12,955 nt of DNA from Anaerolineae bacterium (GTDB lineage: Bacteria; Chloroflexota; Anaerolineae; 4572-78; J111), in assembly GCA_023151115.1 (NCBI GenBank), contig JAKLJP010000094.1, forward strand, positions 1-12,955, written 5' to 3'. How positions within the stretch are numbered: the first letter of the stretch is position 1; every line of letters starts with the position of its first letter. A model generated the notes under the pieces. The model saw nothing but the letters and a program-made list of their open reading frames with translations, was not told where the DNA came from and did not search any database. The position numbers and the translations under genes are program-made. Shown piece after piece: positions 589 to 12,955 of this stretch.

Positions 589-778
589 AGTAACCTTATG
601 TTATGATGCTGAGACGGTACGCTTAAGTATCTGCGATGATGGTCAAGGAAGTGTTGACCCAACCGGCGGCTTTGGCTTGCTCGGCCTGCGTGAGCGGGTC
701 CAGTTAGTGGGCGGCCAGGTCAATATTCACACCGCCCCGGAGCAGGGCTTTCGACTTGAGGTGGAGATACCGACATGA
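581..778 (+). pseudogene. Sensor histidine kinase (NarL/DegS type), C-terminal ATPase remnant
   Basis: The frame opens after a TAA at 578-580 and ends with a TGA that overlaps the ATG of the response regulator (ATGA), the usual layout of a kinase-regulator pair. The translation includes LSICDDGQGS, the G1 box of the HATPase_c domain, and GFGLLGLRERVQLVGG, the G2 region with the GLxGLRER signature of HisKA_3 kinases such as DegS and NarX, followed by the last strand GFRLEVEIPT. Everything upstream (sensor, dimerisation helix with the phospho-His, N box) is missing, replaced by the palindromic element at 485-588. About 60 codons remain of a protein normally several hundred residues long, so it cannot be a working kinase. 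Confidence 0.85.
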
Positions 779-1421
779 GCATCAAAATTTTGTTAGCCGA
801 TGATCAATCGCTCTTTCGGGAAGGGCTGCGGCTGCTGCTTTCAACGCAGCCGGATTTTGAAGTGGTGGGTGAAGCTACCAACGGCGAAGAGGCTCTGCGT
901 CTGGCCGCCAGGTTACGCCCCCAGATTGTGCTGATGGACATGCGGATGCCGGTCCTCGATGGGGTTGAAGCGACCCGCCGTTTACGCGAAACGCAGCCGG
1001 ACTGCCGGGTCATAGTTTTGACCACCTTTGACGACGACGAATTGGTGTTTGAAGGATTGCGGGCCGGGGCAGTTGGCTATCTGCTGAAGGCTGTTTCTGC
1101 CCCGCGCTTGCTCGAGGCCATTCGCACCGTTGTTCGGGGCGAATCCATCCTCGAACCCTCGGTGACGGCCAAAGTTGTGGCTGAATTTGCTCGTCTGTCC
1201 AATCAGGCTTCACGGCCACCGGCGCTGGCGAGTCCCTTATCGGAGCGCGAAATCGAGGTGCTGCGCCTGGTGACAAAGGCGCAACCAACCGCGAGATTGC
1301 CGCCACCCTCGTTATTGCCGAGGGTACGGTCAGAAACCATCTGACCAATATTCTGGGCAAGTTGGGGGTTAGCGACCGCACCGAGGCGGCGGTCAAAGCT
1401 AAAGAATTAGGGTTGGTGTAG
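775..1421 (+). pseudogene. NarL/FixJ-family response regulator, frameshifted in the HTH
   Basis: The receiver domain is complete. It has the acidic pair DD in LLADDQSLF (residues 9-10), the phospho-acceptor Asp in VLMDMRMP (residue 55), the Thr of VLTTFDD and the Lys of YLLKA. The LuxR-type HTH begins with LSEREIEVLRLV, but the frame is lost near 1278-1281 (AAGGCGCAACC). Reading on in the other frame from 1281 gives ATNREIAATLVIAEGTVR, then NHLTNILGKLGV and a natural stop at 1419-1421. Restoring one G (AAGGGCGCA) makes a perfect regulator of about 215 aa. As written, the ORF stops at 1344 with a nonsense tail and would lack DNA binding. Its kinase partner is also destroyed, which favours a real mutation, although a base missed in a short G run would look the same. 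Confidence 0.9.
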
Positions 1422-6784: not shown

Positions 6785-8599
6785 CTACTGCACCACCACA
6801 TCCAGCCCCGGCTCGAAACGCTTCCAGCCCTCATCGCTGCTCAGGCAGGCATCCTTGCGGCTGAAACAGATGGAAAGCTGGAGTTTGTACGCACCGGGCG
6901 CGTTGAAAGCCAGGCCGTCCTCGTGGCGAAAAGTCTGGCCGGGCTGGATGACGCCGTTATCCCAACTGGTTTGGAATTGGCCGGTGCTGGTTAGCAGGCC
7001 CAAAATGCCAAAGGGGACCGGCTCGGCGGTGATATTGGTAACTTGTATACTCACAAACACTTTCTCACCCACCGCATAGGTGTTGCGGCCATCGCGGAAG
7101 CTGATCGTCACCTGCACACTGTCAGGGTCGGCCATCTGGTTAAAGACAATTTTGGTGAACTGCTGGCCGCTCAACGGAATTTCAAAATTCTGGCCCATAA
7201 ATTGAATTTTATACGTGCCGGGTACATTGCCGTAAGTTTCAAACCCACCCTGGCCGTGTTCGGGCTTGCTGCCGCTGGTCAGTTGGTCTACCACCCCGTC
7301 CGGCTTGACCACCGTGACCCGCTCATCTTTCACCCCAATATCGCCGACCAGCAAGGGCAAACCCTGGCCCGGCGTGAGGGTATAAGTCCACCGGCTGGCC
7401 GGTTTGGCCGGAGCCGCCGCCGGTTCAACCACCTCGGTAGCCGTCGCCCTGGTGAACGCGGCGGCTTCAACGACCGGCGCGGAATCGGTCAGAGCCACCG
7501 CCGGCGCAGCACCGGCAGCAGCCAGGGGTTCGGGCACAGGCGATGTCCCGGTCAAAAAGTCGGAGCCGAGCACCTGTTGAAAGGCAGCCAGCCGGTCCAT
7601 AATCGGCCCCAGATGTTCAAAAGTGTCCCACTCCGGCTTACCGGAAGCGCCGGTCACAAACAGGCACGCGCCCATCACAAAATCATCCTTCATTAATTCA
7701 CTGTTGTACCAGAGCAAACTCTGCCAGTAATCGTCCACCGGAATAGGGGTGGCAACCACGCCGCCGGGGATGTCGCGGGGCACGGTACACTCTTTGGCCC
7801 ACGGGCCAATATCCAGCGAGGGACCGCCCCACACTCCTTGAGTCATGCCACACTCGGTGATGATGACGGTGTGCTTGTCGCCGTACTGCTGGCGAATGCC
7901 GTTGTTCATCACCCGGCGGTAGCGCAGACAGCGCCACATGCCGTCATTGCCGCGGCCCTCACCGCCGGGAACGCGGTTGTGCATTTCAACCGGCCCGTTC
8001 AGGCCAATTTGATGCAGGCGGTCCATTGTCGGCCAATCGTACTCGTGGAAGCCCAAATATTTGTACGTTTCCAACGTGCCGGGGTACAATTTTAGCCACT
8101 GCGGGCCGTTGCCGTTGCCCTGGCCAAAATTAAAGGCCACCGGCTCAAAACCGGCGGCCAACATCTTTTGCCCAAACGCCACCTGATACTCATCGTAGAG
8201 TTTTTGGGTATTTTCGTCGGTCCACTCCGGGAAAACTTCGTTCAGCGACTCCCAGGCGTGGAAAATTGGCTGCCCGTTGATGTGATGGATGTCTCGGTTG
8301 ACCTCTTCCCGCAATATCCGCTCGGCCATCTCGACGCCTTTTTTGCGGGCGGCTTCCGCCGTGCCACCGCTCAACTGCCCAAAATCCTGGGGATGGACAA
8401 ACAGCCGGCCAATCAGAAAAACATCCGGGATTTCCTGACGAATCCGCTTCATCACCTCAACGCTGAAATCCAACGTTTTGACCACTTTAGGGCGAAGGCG
8501 AAAAACCGCGTCAAAGGCATCCTGCCGGGGACCGGTAATGTGAAAACCATATTTATGATTGTAGAGTGTATTAAATTTGTGGTATTTTTGATGGTACAT
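6785..8599 (-). CDS. GH-A-like TIM-barrel protein with C-terminal Ig-like domain
   Basis: The 604-aa product begins with a probable (beta/alpha)8 barrel, residues about 15-350. HAWESLNEVFPEW (114-126) has the Asn-Glu pair (N120-E121) that serves as acid/base after strand 4 in clan GH-A glycosidases; VIITECGM (245-252) supplies a Glu (E249) suited to be the strand-7 nucleophile. FHEYDWP (184-190) is a further substrate-pocket candidate. An Ala/Pro-rich linker (about 354-402) leads to a beta-rich region, then an Ig-like domain containing YAVGEKVFVSIQVTNITAEP. I cannot name the GH family. There is no N-terminal signal peptide, odd for a linker-bearing glycosidase. The start ATG follows a G7 tract acting as ribosome binding site; a good promoter lies upstream. 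Glycan cleavage is inference from the fold. Confidence 0.65.
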   Translation of the reverse strand: MYHQKYHKFNTLYNHKYGFHITGPRQDAFDAVFRLRPKVVKTLDFSVEVMKRIRQEIPDVFLIGRLFVHPQDFGQLSGGTAEAARKKGVEMAERILREEVNRDIHHINGQPIFHAWESLNEVFPEWTDENTQKLYDEYQVAFGQKMLAAGFEPVAFNFGQGNGNGPQWLKLYPGTLETYKYLGFHEYDWPTMDRLHQIGLNGPVEMHNRVPGGEGRGNDGMWRCLRYRRVMNNGIRQQYGDKHTVIITECGMTQGVWGGPSLDIGPWAKECTVPRDIPGGVVATPIPVDDYWQSLLWYNSELMKDDFVMGACLFVTGASGKPEWDTFEHLGPIMDRLAAFQQVLGSDFLTGTSPVPEPLAAAGAAPAVALTDSAPVVEAAAFTRATATEVVEPAAAPAKPASRWTYTLTPGQGLPLLVGDIGVKDERVTVVKPDGVVDQLTSGSKPEHGQGGFETYGNVPGTYKIQFMGQNFEIPLSGQQFTKIVFNQMADPDSVQVTISFRDGRNTYAVGEKVFVSIQVTNITAEPVPFGILGLLTSTGQFQTSWDNGVIQPGQTFRHEDGLAFNAPGAYKLQLSICFSRKDACLSSDEGWKRFEPGLDVVVQ

Positions 8600-9849: not shown

Positions 9850-9878
9850 TTGACGTTTTTATTAAATAGGATTACTAT
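9850..9878 (+). promoter_or_regulatory. Predicted promoter of the GntR gene
   Basis: TTGACG (9850-9855) and TACTAT (9873-9878) are separated by 17 bp, with one and two mismatches to consensus. The predicted start near 9885 coincides with the edge of the operator dyad. Confidence 0.7.
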
Positions 9879-9885
9879 CCGCCCA

Positions 9886-9900
9886 AGTTGTCTGACAACT
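9886..9900. promoter_or_regulatory. GntR-type operator dyad at the transcription start
   Basis: AGTTGT-CTG-ACAACT is a perfect 15-bp dyad with the GT...AC arms typical of GntR-family sites. It starts right at the predicted +1 of the downstream GntR gene, so autorepression by roadblock or occlusion is the simplest reading. A looser pair TGTAG/CTACA follows at 9910-9928. Confidence 0.7.
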
Positions 9901-9930
9901 AATAGAGATTGTAGACATTTGGGCTACACA

Positions 9931-10662
9931 ATGCTTGAAACCCTCTCCAAAGTTGACCAGGTTACGGCCAACCTTCGCGCCCTCATAGATATGCGCCAAT
10001 TTGAAGCGGGACGCCTACCCTCGGAGCCGGCTTTGGCCGATCTATTAGGGGCCAGCCGAGCCACAGTGCGCCAGGCGTTGGCGCAACTCGCCCTCGACGG
10101 CTTGATTGTCCGCAAGCACGGCGTGGGGACGTTTGTTAATCCCCATATCCAGAACATCCAGACCCGCCTCGAAGAAGTTTGGGACTTCATCGAAATGATT
10201 CGTCTTTCCGGTCACACGCCAACGGTTCAGCATGTAGAGATGAATTTGGGGCCGGCATCGCCGGAGATTGCCCGTAAATTGGCGCTTGAATCCAAAGCCG
10301 AAGTATTAACCACCGCCAACATCTTCCTGGCCGATGGTCTGCCGGTCATTTACTGCCTCGATTTTATCCCCGCCCACCTGGTCAAACAAGCTTACCGTGA
10401 TGAAGAGCTGCACGGGCCGGTTTATACCTTTCTGGAAAAGCGCTGCGGCCAGCGGGTAGACCACAATATTACCGAAATCTTGCCCGTTGTGGCCGACCCC
10501 CACCTGAGTGAGCTGCTGGACTGCCCGCCGGGCGCGCCTTTGCACTACTTCACTGAAGTTGGGTTCAACAGCCACAACACCCCCATCCTCTACTCCGAAG
10601 AATATTACCGGCCAGAGTTCTTTTCTTTCACTGTCATCCGCAAAATGACGAGCAGGAAGTAG
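9931..10662 (+). CDS. GntR-family transcriptional regulator, HutC/UTRA subfamily
   Basis: The 243-aa product has an N-terminal winged helix with the GntR signature: RLPSEPALADLLGASRATVR, then QALAQLALDGLIVRKHGVGT (residues about 28-67). It is followed by a UTRA ligand domain (about 85-235) with VLTTANIFLADGLPVIYCLD, and ILYSEEYYRPEFFSFTV near the end, typical of HutC-like regulators. These bind small effectors, often the substrate of the pathway they control. I chose ATG 9931 rather than the earlier open frame because it gives the normal N-terminus just before the helix-turn-helix and leaves promoter and operator upstream; its Shine-Dalgarno sequence is weak. It lies 95 bp before the corrinoid-protein gene in the same direction, so its likely job is to regulate the methyltransferase pair. 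Confidence 0.9.
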   Translation: MLETLSKVDQVTANLRALIDMRQFEAGRLPSEPALADLLGASRATVRQALAQLALDGLIVRKHGVGTFVNPHIQNIQTRLEEVWDFIEMIRLSGHTPTVQHVEMNLGPASPEIARKLALESKAEVLTTANIFLADGLPVIYCLDFIPAHLVKQAYRDEELHGPVYTFLEKRCGQRVDHNITEILPVVADPHLSELLDCPPGAPLHYFTEVGFNSHNTPILYSEEYYRPEFFSFTVIRKMTSRK

Positions 10663-10736
10663 GGAGTAAGGAGTAGGGAGTAGGCAGTAAGGTGCACTTC
10701 CTATTGATAACTGATTACTGACTACTGACTACTGAC
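10658..10736. repeat. Heptad-repeat inverted element C
   Basis: The left arm is five 7-bp units AGTAGGG, AGTAAGG, AGTAGGG, AGTAGGC, AGTAAGG (10658-10692). The right arm is TGATAAC, TGATTAC, TGACTAC, TGACTAC, TGAC (10705-10736), whose reverse complement runs GTCAGTAGTCAGTA... in the same phase. The arms pair imperfectly around GGTGCACTTCC. The first unit overlaps the stop codon of the GntR gene, and the element fills the gap before the corrinoid gene. Confidence 0.75.
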
Positions 10737-10757
10737 ATCTATCTTTAAGGAGGCGCT

Positions 10758-11447
10758 ATGTTAACCAAACAAGAATATCTGGAAGAAATCGAGCAGATCA
10801 TCGTTGACGGCGATGAGGAGGAAGCAGCCGCCGTGGTGGCCGAAGCGTTGGAGGCCGGTCTCAGCGCCTTCGACATCCTCAACGACGGTTTGATGACCGG
10901 GGCCAAAACCGTGGGCCGGCTGTTTGAAACCGGCGAATTTTTTCTGCCGGAATTGATGATGACCGGCCGCGCCCTCAAAGCAGCCATGGGCCTGATTACG
11001 CCGGTGCTGCAAGCCGAGTTTGCCGGCAACATGGCCGGCAGCGATACCGGAGTGGTCGTGATGGCAACCGTCCAGACCGACATCCACGACATCGGCAAAA
11101 ATATTGTGGCCTCAATGCTGGTAGCCACCGGCTTTGAGGTGGTTGACTTGGGCGTAGATGTGCCGATCAAAAGCATCATCGCCAAAGCCCAAGAAGTCAA
11201 CGCCAACATCATCGGCTGTTCGGCCCTGCTGACCACCTCGATGCCTTTTATGCGCGACCTGGTGGATTTGCTCAAAGCCATGGGCCAGCGCGACCGCTTC
11301 AAGGTGATGGTCGGCGGGGCTTCAGTTACTCCGCTCTTTGCCGAAAAAATCGGCGCAGACGGGACCGCGCCCAACGCCATCGAAGCCGTGCAACTTGCCA
11401 AACGTTTAATTCGAGAACAACGCCAGCAGCAGGCAGTGGGGATCTAA
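10758..11447 (+). CDS. Corrinoid (cobalamin-binding) methyl-carrier protein, MtmC/MttC/MtbC type
   Basis: The 229-aa product is a cobalamin-binding methyl carrier. Residues 1-90 form the helical cap (B12-binding_2), with the typical LFETGEFFLPELMMTGRALK. The B12 domain carries the base-off, His-on motif TDIHDIGKNIV, with D108-x-H110-x-x-G113, where His110 would ligate cobalt. SALLTTSMPFM (155-165) and VMVGGASVT (183-191) are the loops holding the nucleotide tail, and GADGTAPNAIEAV is the usual end. Methyl groups would pass from the substrate-specific methyltransferase to Co(I) here and on to a pterin or other acceptor. The gene has a strong AAGGAGG four bases before its ATG and lies only four bases before the MtmB-like gene, so the two form one functional pair. 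Confidence 0.93.
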   Translation: MLTKQEYLEEIEQIIVDGDEEEAAAVVAEALEAGLSAFDILNDGLMTGAKTVGRLFETGEFFLPELMMTGRALKAAMGLITPVLQAEFAGNMAGSDTGVVVMATVQTDIHDIGKNIVASMLVATGFEVVDLGVDVPIKSIIAKAQEVNANIIGCSALLTTSMPFMRDLVDLLKAMGQRDRFKVMVGGASVTPLFAEKIGADGTAPNAIEAVQLAKRLIREQRQQQAVGI

Positions 11448-11451
11448 AACC

Positions 11452-12828
11452 ATGTTGAACTACCACGAAATTATGGACCGGGCCAGAAGCGGCCCTTATA
11501 TCAAAGAAGAAGATTGGGATTTGCAGAAAGTGGCCATGGCCACCCGCCGGTTGGTCAAGAAATATAAACTCAAGTGGGACCCAGAGGTAATTGTCACCGC
11601 CGACCCCGGCCTGGCCGATACCATTTTTGAAGCCGGCCTGGAACTGGCCAAAGAAATTGGGGCTTATTCGCGCAGCAGTGAGCGCATCATCGAATTTGAA
11701 CCCGGCGAATTGGAAGAAGGCATGCGCCTGGCCCCGCAAACCCTGGTCATGGGCGAAGGCAAAGACGCCCGCACCCTCTACGCCCGTAAAATCATGGATG
11801 AACGCCTGCCGCTGGTCTGGGCCGGCAACCCCGGCGCGCCAACGCCGGAAGAGCTGTTCTTGCCCAGCGTTATGAGCTGGATGCAAGAGCCAATTGTGGA
11901 TTTGGTCACCTGCGGCACACTGGTTCAGGTAGATGGCCGGGAAGTGCGCACCGGCGACCCGATTGAGATTATCTCGACCCGGCGCGAGCTGCAATACATG
12001 CGCCAGGGTTTGAAACGGGTGGGCCGGCCCGGCATGGGCATGCTGGCCGCCCAAAGCTCAGTCTCAGAATTGGGCGATTTGGCCGCGGCCCATCCCGATT
12101 ATCTTCGCCCGTGCGACTCGCACCTGGTGCCGATGCTGAATGAGTTAAAAATGGACAATCGTAACATCTCGCGGGCGGTCAACTCGCTGGAGTACGGCAT
12201 GCGCAACGCCTCGCTGCCCTGCGTGATTGTCGGTGGGCTGGGCGGCGACGCGCCCGGTTCGGCGGTGGTCAATGTGGCCTCGTTTATTGTGGCCAATTTG
12301 ACCTGCCTGGCCGATTATCACCTCTGCCACCCGATCCATATTCGCCACGTGGCCACCACCACCCGCAGCGTGATGTGGGTCGAGAACATCGTCCAGCAGG
12401 CCTTTGCCCGCAATGCGCCCTGTATTATTGTCAGCGACATCTACCCCAAAAGCGGCGCGCTGACCCGCGAACTGCTCTATGAAACGGCGGCCAACGCCAT
12501 CGTCATCACTGCCAGCGGCGGCCATCTGGAAGGGTGCGGCTCGGCCGACGGCAACGCCCCCAACGGCACCGGCCTGGAAGCTCGCTTTATGGGTGAGGTG
12601 GGTCACGCCGTCGCCCGGCAAAATTTGTCGCTGGAGGAAGCCAACACTCTGGTGTTGAAGCTGCTCCAAAAATACGAGCACGTCTTTGACTTGCCCGGTG
12701 GCAATCCTGGCGTTCCCTTCGATCAGGCTTACGACATGGTGCATTTGCGTCCGCTCCCCGAATGGCAGCGTATGTACGATGAGGTCAAAGCCGAAGTGCG
12801 GGAGATGGGATTAGCGACGTTGGTTTAG
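11452..12828 (+). CDS. MtmB-type (monomethylamine methyltransferase family) corrinoid methyltransferase lacking pyrrolysine
   Basis: The 458-aa product matches archaeal MtmB in length and block order: EEDWDLQKVAMA (19-30), GRPGMG (191-196), PCDSH (220-224), MLNELKMD (228-235), HPIHIR (293-298), GTGLEARFMGEVGHAVA (372-388). MtmB transfers methyl from monomethylamine to its corrinoid protein and normally carries pyrrolysine at residue 202, encoded by UAG. This ORF has no in-frame UAG before its natural TAG stop. Anchored on GRPGMG, the aligned residue is Leu198 (CTG, 12043-12045). Other MtmB active-site residues as I remember them are changed too: E229 to Leu225, E259 to Ala253, Q333 to Asp329; only Y335 is kept (Tyr331). 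The substrate is therefore probably not methylamine, and the mechanism must do without pyrrolysine, as in MtgB-type MttB relatives. The residue mapping was done by eye against a recalled reference. Confidence 0.85.
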   Translation: MLNYHEIMDRARSGPYIKEEDWDLQKVAMATRRLVKKYKLKWDPEVIVTADPGLADTIFEAGLELAKEIGAYSRSSERIIEFEPGELEEGMRLAPQTLVMGEGKDARTLYARKIMDERLPLVWAGNPGAPTPEELFLPSVMSWMQEPIVDLVTCGTLVQVDGREVRTGDPIEIISTRRELQYMRQGLKRVGRPGMGMLAAQSSVSELGDLAAAHPDYLRPCDSHLVPMLNELKMDNRNISRAVNSLEYGMRNASLPCVIVGGLGGDAPGSAVVNVASFIVANLTCLADYHLCHPIHIRHVATTTRSVMWVENIVQQAFARNAPCIIVSDIYPKSGALTRELLYETAANAIVITASGGHLEGCGSADGNAPNGTGLEARFMGEVGHAVARQNLSLEEANTLVLKLLQKYEHVFDLPGGNPGVPFDQAYDMVHLRPLPEWQRMYDEVKAEVREMGLATLV

Positions 12829-12855
12829 CTCCGTTAAGAGGATATGTTCAAATTT

Positions 12856-12952
12856 TGGAAAAATAGCGCCCTTCGATACGGCTTTCGCTTCGCTTCAGCC
12901 TACTCAGGACGCTATCAAGACCATTTTTCCAGCAAAATCGCATCCTGAGTAG
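12856..12952. repeat. Intergenic inverted-repeat element, continuing to or past the window end
   Basis: CTACTCAGGA (12900-12909) pairs perfectly with TCCTGAGTAG (12943-12952), and TGGAAAAAT (12856-12864) pairs with ATTTTTCCA (12923-12931). The two pairings interlock rather than nest. The CTTCG/GCTTCGCTTCAGCCTACTCAGG style is that of dispersed chromosomal repeats. No terminator with a clear T-run is visible after the methyltransferase gene. Confidence 0.55.
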
Positions 12953-12955
12953 CGC

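Follow-up and report, generated by a model that had tools for sequence, protein, structure and literature searches.

In the methyltransferase MtmB, pyrrolysine (Pyl) and the residues E229, E259 and Q333 hold the methylamine adduct. Family members that lack Pyl, termed non-Pyl MtmB, are already known as a kind of enzyme, and the present work concerns one of them, encoded at positions 11452..12828 of a 12,955-nucleotide stretch of contig JAKLJP010000094.1 from an Anaerolineae bacterium (assembly GCA_023151115.1), hereafter the window. The only characterised example that we found is MtqB of Methanococcoides methylutens Q3c, which acts on tetramethylammonium, choline and methylamine at 37, 42 and 11 nmol/min/mg, respectively, and is presented in a paper of March 2026 as the first demonstrated function of a non-Pyl MtmB (PMC13044021). 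It overturns the statement in the initial annotation of the window, made from the sequence alone, that no characterised enzyme of this kind was known. The tree of 1,061 MtmB sequences in the same paper contains many non-Pyl members, those outside the MtqB branch being described as of unknown function; its main text contains none of the words "purine", "xanthine", "adenine", "Chloroflex" or "Anaerolin" (PMC13044021). In strain DCMF on dichloromethane, a non-Pyl MtmB was the most increased protein (PMC9768040). Within the literature searched, the term "non-Pyl MtmB" was confined to these two papers, no text joined "caffeine", "anaerobic", "corrinoid" and "demethylation", and among the matches listed none tied corrinoid methyltransferases to methylpurines.

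Our findings indicate that the window protein is very probably a corrinoid-dependent demethylase of an N-methyl compound. A narrower proposal, that it serves a corrinoid system as the substrate-specific methyltransferase and so demethylates an N-methylated purine base in anaerobic bacteria, we regard as evenly poised between true and false. Because the genes of its relatives adjoin nucleobase-type transporters and purine-degrading genes, methylpurines may be demethylated in these organisms without oxygen.

Family membership and active-site pocket

The gene lies on the forward strand (11452..12828) as a reading frame of 458 codons that opens with ATG and has no in-frame stop, which bears out the frame free of UAG reported in the initial annotation. 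Its 458-residue product matches the Pfam family MtmB (PF05369) with 322 bits against a cut-off of 25, spanning profile positions 4-450 of 450, and M. barkeri MtmB aligns with it along the entire length in phmmer. The protein is thus a member of the MtmB family, as had been proposed, and has the MtmB fold.

Since the alignment is ungapped around Leu198 and Pyl202, Leu198 (codon CTG, 12043..12045) occupies the position at which Pyl-MtmB genes carry UAG. In the phmmer and MAFFT alignments, Leu225 (12124..12126) stands at Glu229 and Leu255 (12214..12216) at Glu259, while Asp329 (12436..12438) replaces Gln333 and Tyr331 (12442..12444) corresponds to Tyr335 (MAFFT); all of these codons are on the forward strand. 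The pocket replacements named beforehand held for Pyl202, E229 and Q333, whereas the alanine assigned to E259 did not: both alignments pair E259 with Leu255, and Ala253 lies two residues before it, the two sharing predicted strand 251-256. The glutamate is gone regardless. Judged by E229, E259 and Q333, the protein is not of the Pyl type, and its pocket is hydrophobic with one Asp.

The same residues, L/L/L/D/Y, recur in 119 of the 120 homologues listed out of 1,330 (72-98% identity), with L/V/L/D/Y in the remaining one. Compared with the gene of a sister species (locus L001), the window gene has a dN/dS of 0.0086/0.26. Conservation among homologues, together with this low ratio, suggests that the pocket pattern is more than chance.

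Relatives and phylogeny

Relatives were taken from a contig scan as the best 80 of 210, so the sample leans to close ones. The first 64 share 46-98% identity with the window protein in their best segment and are labelled as Chloroflexota, Spirochaetota, Deltaproteobacterium Smac51, and Lachnospiraceae and other Clostridia, many of these from guts, with one (L003) labelled Acidimicrobiia. The remaining 16, at 34-36% identity, all carry an in-frame TAG at the Pyl position.

A FastTree phylogeny of 175 MtmB sequences, with exact copies removed and built without MtqB and the DCMF protein Ga0180325_111810, places the window protein in a clade of 68 leaves (support 0.997) that comprises the window, 60 of the 64 loci (the other four are partial) and 7 of the listed homologues. 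All 68 leaves have Leu at the Pyl position, Leu at both glutamate positions and Asp at the Gln333 position, together with an aromatic residue aligned with Tyr335 (Tyr in 55, Trp in 11 and Phe in 2). One further leaf, L122_m1, raises the total with this LLLD pocket to 69; it is excluded from the 68, grouping with three non-LLLD leaves in a 72-leaf node (support 1.0). The 46 Pyl leaves, which include M. barkeri and several that may be one gene from overlapping loci, form with 17 other sequences a 63-leaf clade (support 0.994) outside which the window falls. Their pocket is E/E/Q/Y in 45 of 46, L077 having a second TAG at E259. The invariance of the new pocket in a non-Pyl clade apart from the Pyl leaves supports the earlier expectation of a non-Pyl member whose substrate differs from methylamine.

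The genomes follow the same division. TAG was absent from all 20 matches in 12 clade genomes and present in all five from four Pyl genomes, and PylB exceeded its cut-off in 1/12 clade genomes tested versus 4/4 genomes of TAG-bearing relatives; the sister genome, G001, had no PylB over the cut-off. The single clade genome with PylB is that of Deltaproteobacterium Smac51 (L039, G009), yet its clade MtmB has no TAG. Inside the Pyl clade, P0121 and P0122 are listed as full-length MtmB proteins that keep the E/E/Q/Y pocket and read Gln where Pyl would stand, probably because the UAG of a Pyl gene was translated as Gln.

Together with its nearest paralogues, the window clade forms an 88-leaf group (support 0.992) whose pockets vary by subfamily (L/L/L/D, N/L/L/D, G/Q/F/L, T/T/Y/T and others). 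The trait is patchy, since an MtmB-family match was found in only 7 of 400 sampled genomes from the phylum of G001, and one of these matches is a fragment. Two further non-Pyl proteins with the corrinoid-mtmB gene order, L140 and L142, come from genomes selected for their relatedness to an archaeon; they share 28% identity with the window protein, lie outside its clade and have the pockets VLCYF and ITCYF. They may be MtqB. No Methanococcoides name occurs among the matches listed (120 of 551) for M. barkeri MtmB homologues.

Gene neighbourhood

The methyltransferase gene is the last of three consecutive genes on one strand of the window, after those for a GntR/UTRA regulator and a corrinoid protein. 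The corrinoid protein (MtxC type, 229 residues, 10758..11447, forward strand) ends just before the methyltransferase gene and scores 95.5 bits for B12-binding and 76.1 bits for B12-binding_2, both over cut-off. Its NCBIfam scores for MtgC (201.6 bits) and pyl_corrinoid (200.5 bits) fall under theirs, and its relatives in the PDB are 1y80, MttC and MtmC. The translation carries D-x-H-x-x-G (TDIHDIGK), which we take to be the corrinoid-protein motif.

Only 127 bp of the window are left beyond the end of mtmB, and genes for purine uptake or catabolism lie outside it, in relatives. The sister locus L001 is collinear with the window up to its end (92.6% DNA identity over 9850-12955). Its mtmB is followed by genes for adenine deaminase, a xanthine-dehydrogenase-type molybdenum subunit, an FAD/iron-sulphur subunit, two small open reading frames (ORFs) and a second such pair. 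The adenine deaminase (613.6 bits, cut-off 472.5) is the sole match of its kind in the 9-Mb genome.

Gene labels across loci were assigned with phmmer (E 1e-10, >40 bits) using 22 representative proteins as queries; the ECF ATPase label was left uncounted, as it also caught other ABC ATPases. A transporter was found in 51 of the 64 clade loci, namely a YkoE-like ECF component in 20, a BMP protein in 11 and a xanthine/uracil-permease-like protein in 20, versus 0/16 Pyl loci (Fisher p 2.5e-9, a value that ignores relatedness). In 50 of the 64, no more than 400 bp separate such a transporter gene from mtmB; a BMP transporter is its neighbour in the gut member L030, and the permease is in L050. 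Among the 13 loci that lack a transporter are short contigs and the locus of the cultured Pelolinea submarina MO-CFX1 (L013), where purine genes are absent as well. For one YkoE-like component, the closest solved relative is the HMP/thiamine component YkoE, while the permease-like proteins gave no sequence match in Pfam or NCBIfam (L050) or in Pfam, NCBIfam and PDB (L028).

Adenine deaminase occurs in 5/64 clade loci, always over the equivalog cut-off and as the single copy of its genome; in L044 and L049 it is on the opposite strand. Equal amounts of DNA would be expected to hold 0.2, at a density drawn from 17 genomes and raised by including these five; with four loci counted, as L030 and L038 are both Blautia, P is 5e-5. 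Any purine enzyme was present in 7/64 clade versus 0/16 Pyl loci, a difference that alone is not significant (p 0.33). A "guanine deaminase" (GuaD) label was dropped, as the proteins bearing it score best against models of 5'-deoxyadenosine deaminase, passing the cut-off in L003 and L083 and falling short of it in L004, L101 and L104. A search for RNA families in 24 sources, including 12 of the 20 ECF loci, found no purine or TPP riboswitch and returned only two T-boxes, in L028 and L037, the latter preceding a prolyl-tRNA synthetase gene.

Several observations accompany these loci. Homocysteine S-methyltransferase-like genes (PF02574) adjoin ECF-type clusters at L008:17152-18033 and L024:12165-13061, and URO-D proteins are found in L008 and L003. 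A conserved protein of about 230 residues recurs at L083:10676-11371, L084:484-1173 and L024:13071-13769; the L083 copy has no NCBIfam match.

Clusters with several MtmB genes

Some genomes hold several MtmB genes in one cluster. A contig of Chloroflexi RBG_16_57_11 (L004) carries seven non-Pyl MtmB genes in the stretch 10,996-47,732, accompanied by corrinoid proteins, a pair of BMP transporters, RACo and a methyltetrahydrofolate (MTHF):corrinoid methyltransferase over cut-off. The same contig has purine-type genes: three encode xanthine-dehydrogenase-type large subunits, one an adenosine deaminase (313 bits against a cut-off of 217) and one a 5'-deoxyadenosine deaminase that also exceeds its cut-off. 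In G035, the cluster comprises a corrinoid protein, MtmB, a BMP transporter, a further MtmB, xanthine-dehydrogenase-type genes, ECF T and ATPase genes and a deaminase-like amidohydrolase; that of G002 holds a xanthine-dehydrogenase-type gene, a BMP transporter, a corrinoid protein, two MtmB, a tetrahydrofolate methyltransferase and RACo. G570, one of the genomes selected as related to archaeon G415, combines a BMP transporter, RACo, a corrinoid protein and two MtmB. No such purine genes were seen in the cluster survey at the non-Pyl MtmB loci L103, L106 and L107.

The seven-gene cluster, covered by L081-L083 on one 53-kb contig (G003:C2), also encodes a Rieske protein. The closest solved relatives of this Rieske protein are SxtDIOX and SxtT (259 and 255 bits), followed by NdmA (155) and NdmB (122), a ranking suggestive of N-demethylation but not specific. 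At L105 (G027:C518, 1606-3324), a dihydropyrimidinase over cut-off lies about 6 kb from a non-Pyl MtmB with a different pocket, whose substrate may be N-methylhydantoin or a pyrimidine.

Proposed function and mechanism

Of the parts of a three-component corrinoid system, the cognate corrinoid protein lies in the window, and the activator and second methyltransferase are found in the sister genome G001 (RACo_C_ter 313.5 bits, MTHF:corrinoid methyltransferase 344.6 bits; neither is in the window). Among the clade genomes examined, the RACo C-terminal domain is present in 13/13, and the MTHF:corrinoid methyltransferase exceeds its cut-off in 8/12, sister included. Acetyl-CoA synthase (CdhC) was found in only 4/13 and not in the sister genome, so the methyl group probably enters the one-carbon pool or methionine in most genomes tested.

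Pyl makes the nitrogen of methylamine a leaving group, and the ring nitrogen of a purine departs like a phenolate. Such a substrate would make Pyl unnecessary, its ring nitrogen leaving far more readily than the nitrogen of methylamine. From what is known of the family, we propose that the purine would sit between the leucines, where MtmB holds Pyl and methylamine, and that Asp329 would lie close to the nitrogen that departs. The N-methyl group would be attacked by Co(I) of the neighbouring corrinoid protein, held in that state by RACo, and the methyl would then pass to tetrahydrofolate; in some relatives homocysteine may take it instead. Adenine deaminase and xanthine-dehydrogenase-type enzymes would deaminate and oxidise the base thus released. 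Whether the substrate is indeed a purine base or a close analogue we hold to be an even call; our best guess is adenine or guanine with a methyl group on the ring, or a methylxanthine.

This proposal may extend, tentatively and with the balance tilted against it, to the whole 88-leaf radiation of the window clade and its island paralogues: its members, with pockets that vary by subfamily, would each demethylate N-methylated purines or similar heterocycles at a specific position, a cluster such as the seven-gene one would strip several methyl positions in turn, and Pyl would serve only poor leaving groups. Caffeine and methylpurine N-demethylation would then have an oxygen-free counterpart in Chloroflexota and in animal guts.

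Methylated bases of RNA and DNA and the methylxanthines of plants are widespread, and O2-dependent N-demethylation of both is known. If the purine proposal is true, the methyl groups of methylpurines have a further, anaerobic route, and it becomes simple to explain why methylamines require Pyl and other N-methyl compounds do not. A concrete substrate class would also make the non-Pyl MtmB members outside the MtqB branch a testable group of enzymes.

Alternative explanations

Some clade loci have no purine genes, the xanthine-dehydrogenase family is broad, and the ECF transporters have no assigned cargo; each of these points weighs against a purine substrate. A rival substrate is another N-methyl heterocycle of the pyrimidine, hydantoin, nicotinate or thiazole type, with purine genes marking only some relatives. 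We consider this unlikely: the hydrophobic pocket with its single Asp would suit it, as would the 20 loci with YkoE-like components, one of them nearest to the HMP/thiamine component, and the dihydropyrimidinase of the G027 paralogue cluster, but the recognised catabolic enzymes near clade members are purine enzymes and the RNA search of 24 sources, 12 of the 20 ECF loci among them, yielded no TPP riboswitch. A second rival is demethylation of a quaternary alkylamine such as choline or tetramethylammonium, the activity of MtqB (PMC13044021), or of another alkylamine. The initial annotation drew a parallel with the quaternary-amine enzymes of the MttB family, and the upstream corrinoid protein resembles the MtgC/MtbC types. 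The neighbourhood of the relatives points rather to purine bases, as the transporters adjoining clade genes are of BMP, ECF and permease types, and the possible MtqB-type proteins L140 and L142 stand apart in identity, tree position and pocket; transporter types and pocket thus lower this explanation to an improbable one.

An enzyme that hydrolyses N6-methyladenine to hypoxanthine and methylamine exists. An adenine-deaminase-like enzyme of this sort could release methylamine for Pyl-free demethylation by the window protein, an idea consistent with the five loci bearing adenine deaminase and with the weak activity of MtqB on methylamine (PMC13044021). We judge it very improbable, given that 59/64 clade loci have no adenine deaminase and that Pyl, E229, E259 and Q333 have given way to Leu, Leu, Leu and Asp throughout the clade. 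If anything still less probable is a reversed reaction, in which the protein would act as a methylase, or a main role in supplying methyl groups for methionine synthesis. The scarcity of CdhC and the homocysteine S-methyltransferase-like genes of L008 and L024 would fit such a role, while RACo and uptake-type transporters suit catabolism or salvage, and to our knowledge the characterised MtxB proteins demethylate.

Other features of the window

The GntR/UTRA transcription regulator (9934..10662, forward strand; UTRA 96.8 bits, GntR 57.8 bits) starts at ATG 9934 within an ORF listed from TTG 9850, and L001 has it in matching gene order; it presumably regulates the system. Upstream of it lies the perfect palindrome AGTTGTCTGACAACT (AGTTGTC-T-GACAACT, 9886..9900), a possible operator. 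Its core TTGTC-N-GACAA occurs at or just upstream of the regulator gene start in L001 and L002, and copies in L015 and L050 lie elsewhere. Between the regulator and corrinoid genes (10663-10740) are GGAGTAGG-type and CTGACTACTGAC-type repeats, also present in L001 with a different copy number. Further upstream, a 604-residue protein (6785-8599, reverse strand) is conserved in L001 and has no Pfam or NCBIfam match, and a response-regulator ORF (775-1344, forward strand) has a DNA-binding part that, by eye, seems out of frame near its end.

Comparison with known systems

Like MtqB, the window protein belongs to the MtmB family, lacks Pyl and has an adjoining corrinoid gene, and methylation of free cob(I)alamin, reported for MtqB, is proposed for it; MtqB (ACT9XH_RS04775) differs in being archaeal and in acting on tetramethylammonium and choline (PMC13044021), and the distance is gauged here through the possible MtqB-type sequences L140 and L142. 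Ga0180325_111810 of "Ca. Formimonas warabiya" DCMF is likewise a bacterial non-Pyl MtmB for which its authors propose a role other than the demethylation of methylamine; from its published description, it is set apart by its leading increase on dichloromethane and by an identity of about 30% to other family members (PMC9768040). From Pyl MtmB (PDB 1nth, 1l2q, 1tv2), the window protein differs in the missing UAG and Pyl and the replaced pocket, with 11 of 12 clade genomes lacking PylB over the cut-off. The non-Pyl MttB family (MtgB and others, COG5598) is separate, at 11% identity over 332 residues. NdmA and NdmB (PDB 6ick, 6icl), which N-demethylate methylxanthines, are Rieske oxygenases requiring O2. 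Their net reaction, removal of a purine N-methyl group, is the one proposed for the window protein, to which they are unrelated in both protein and mechanism.
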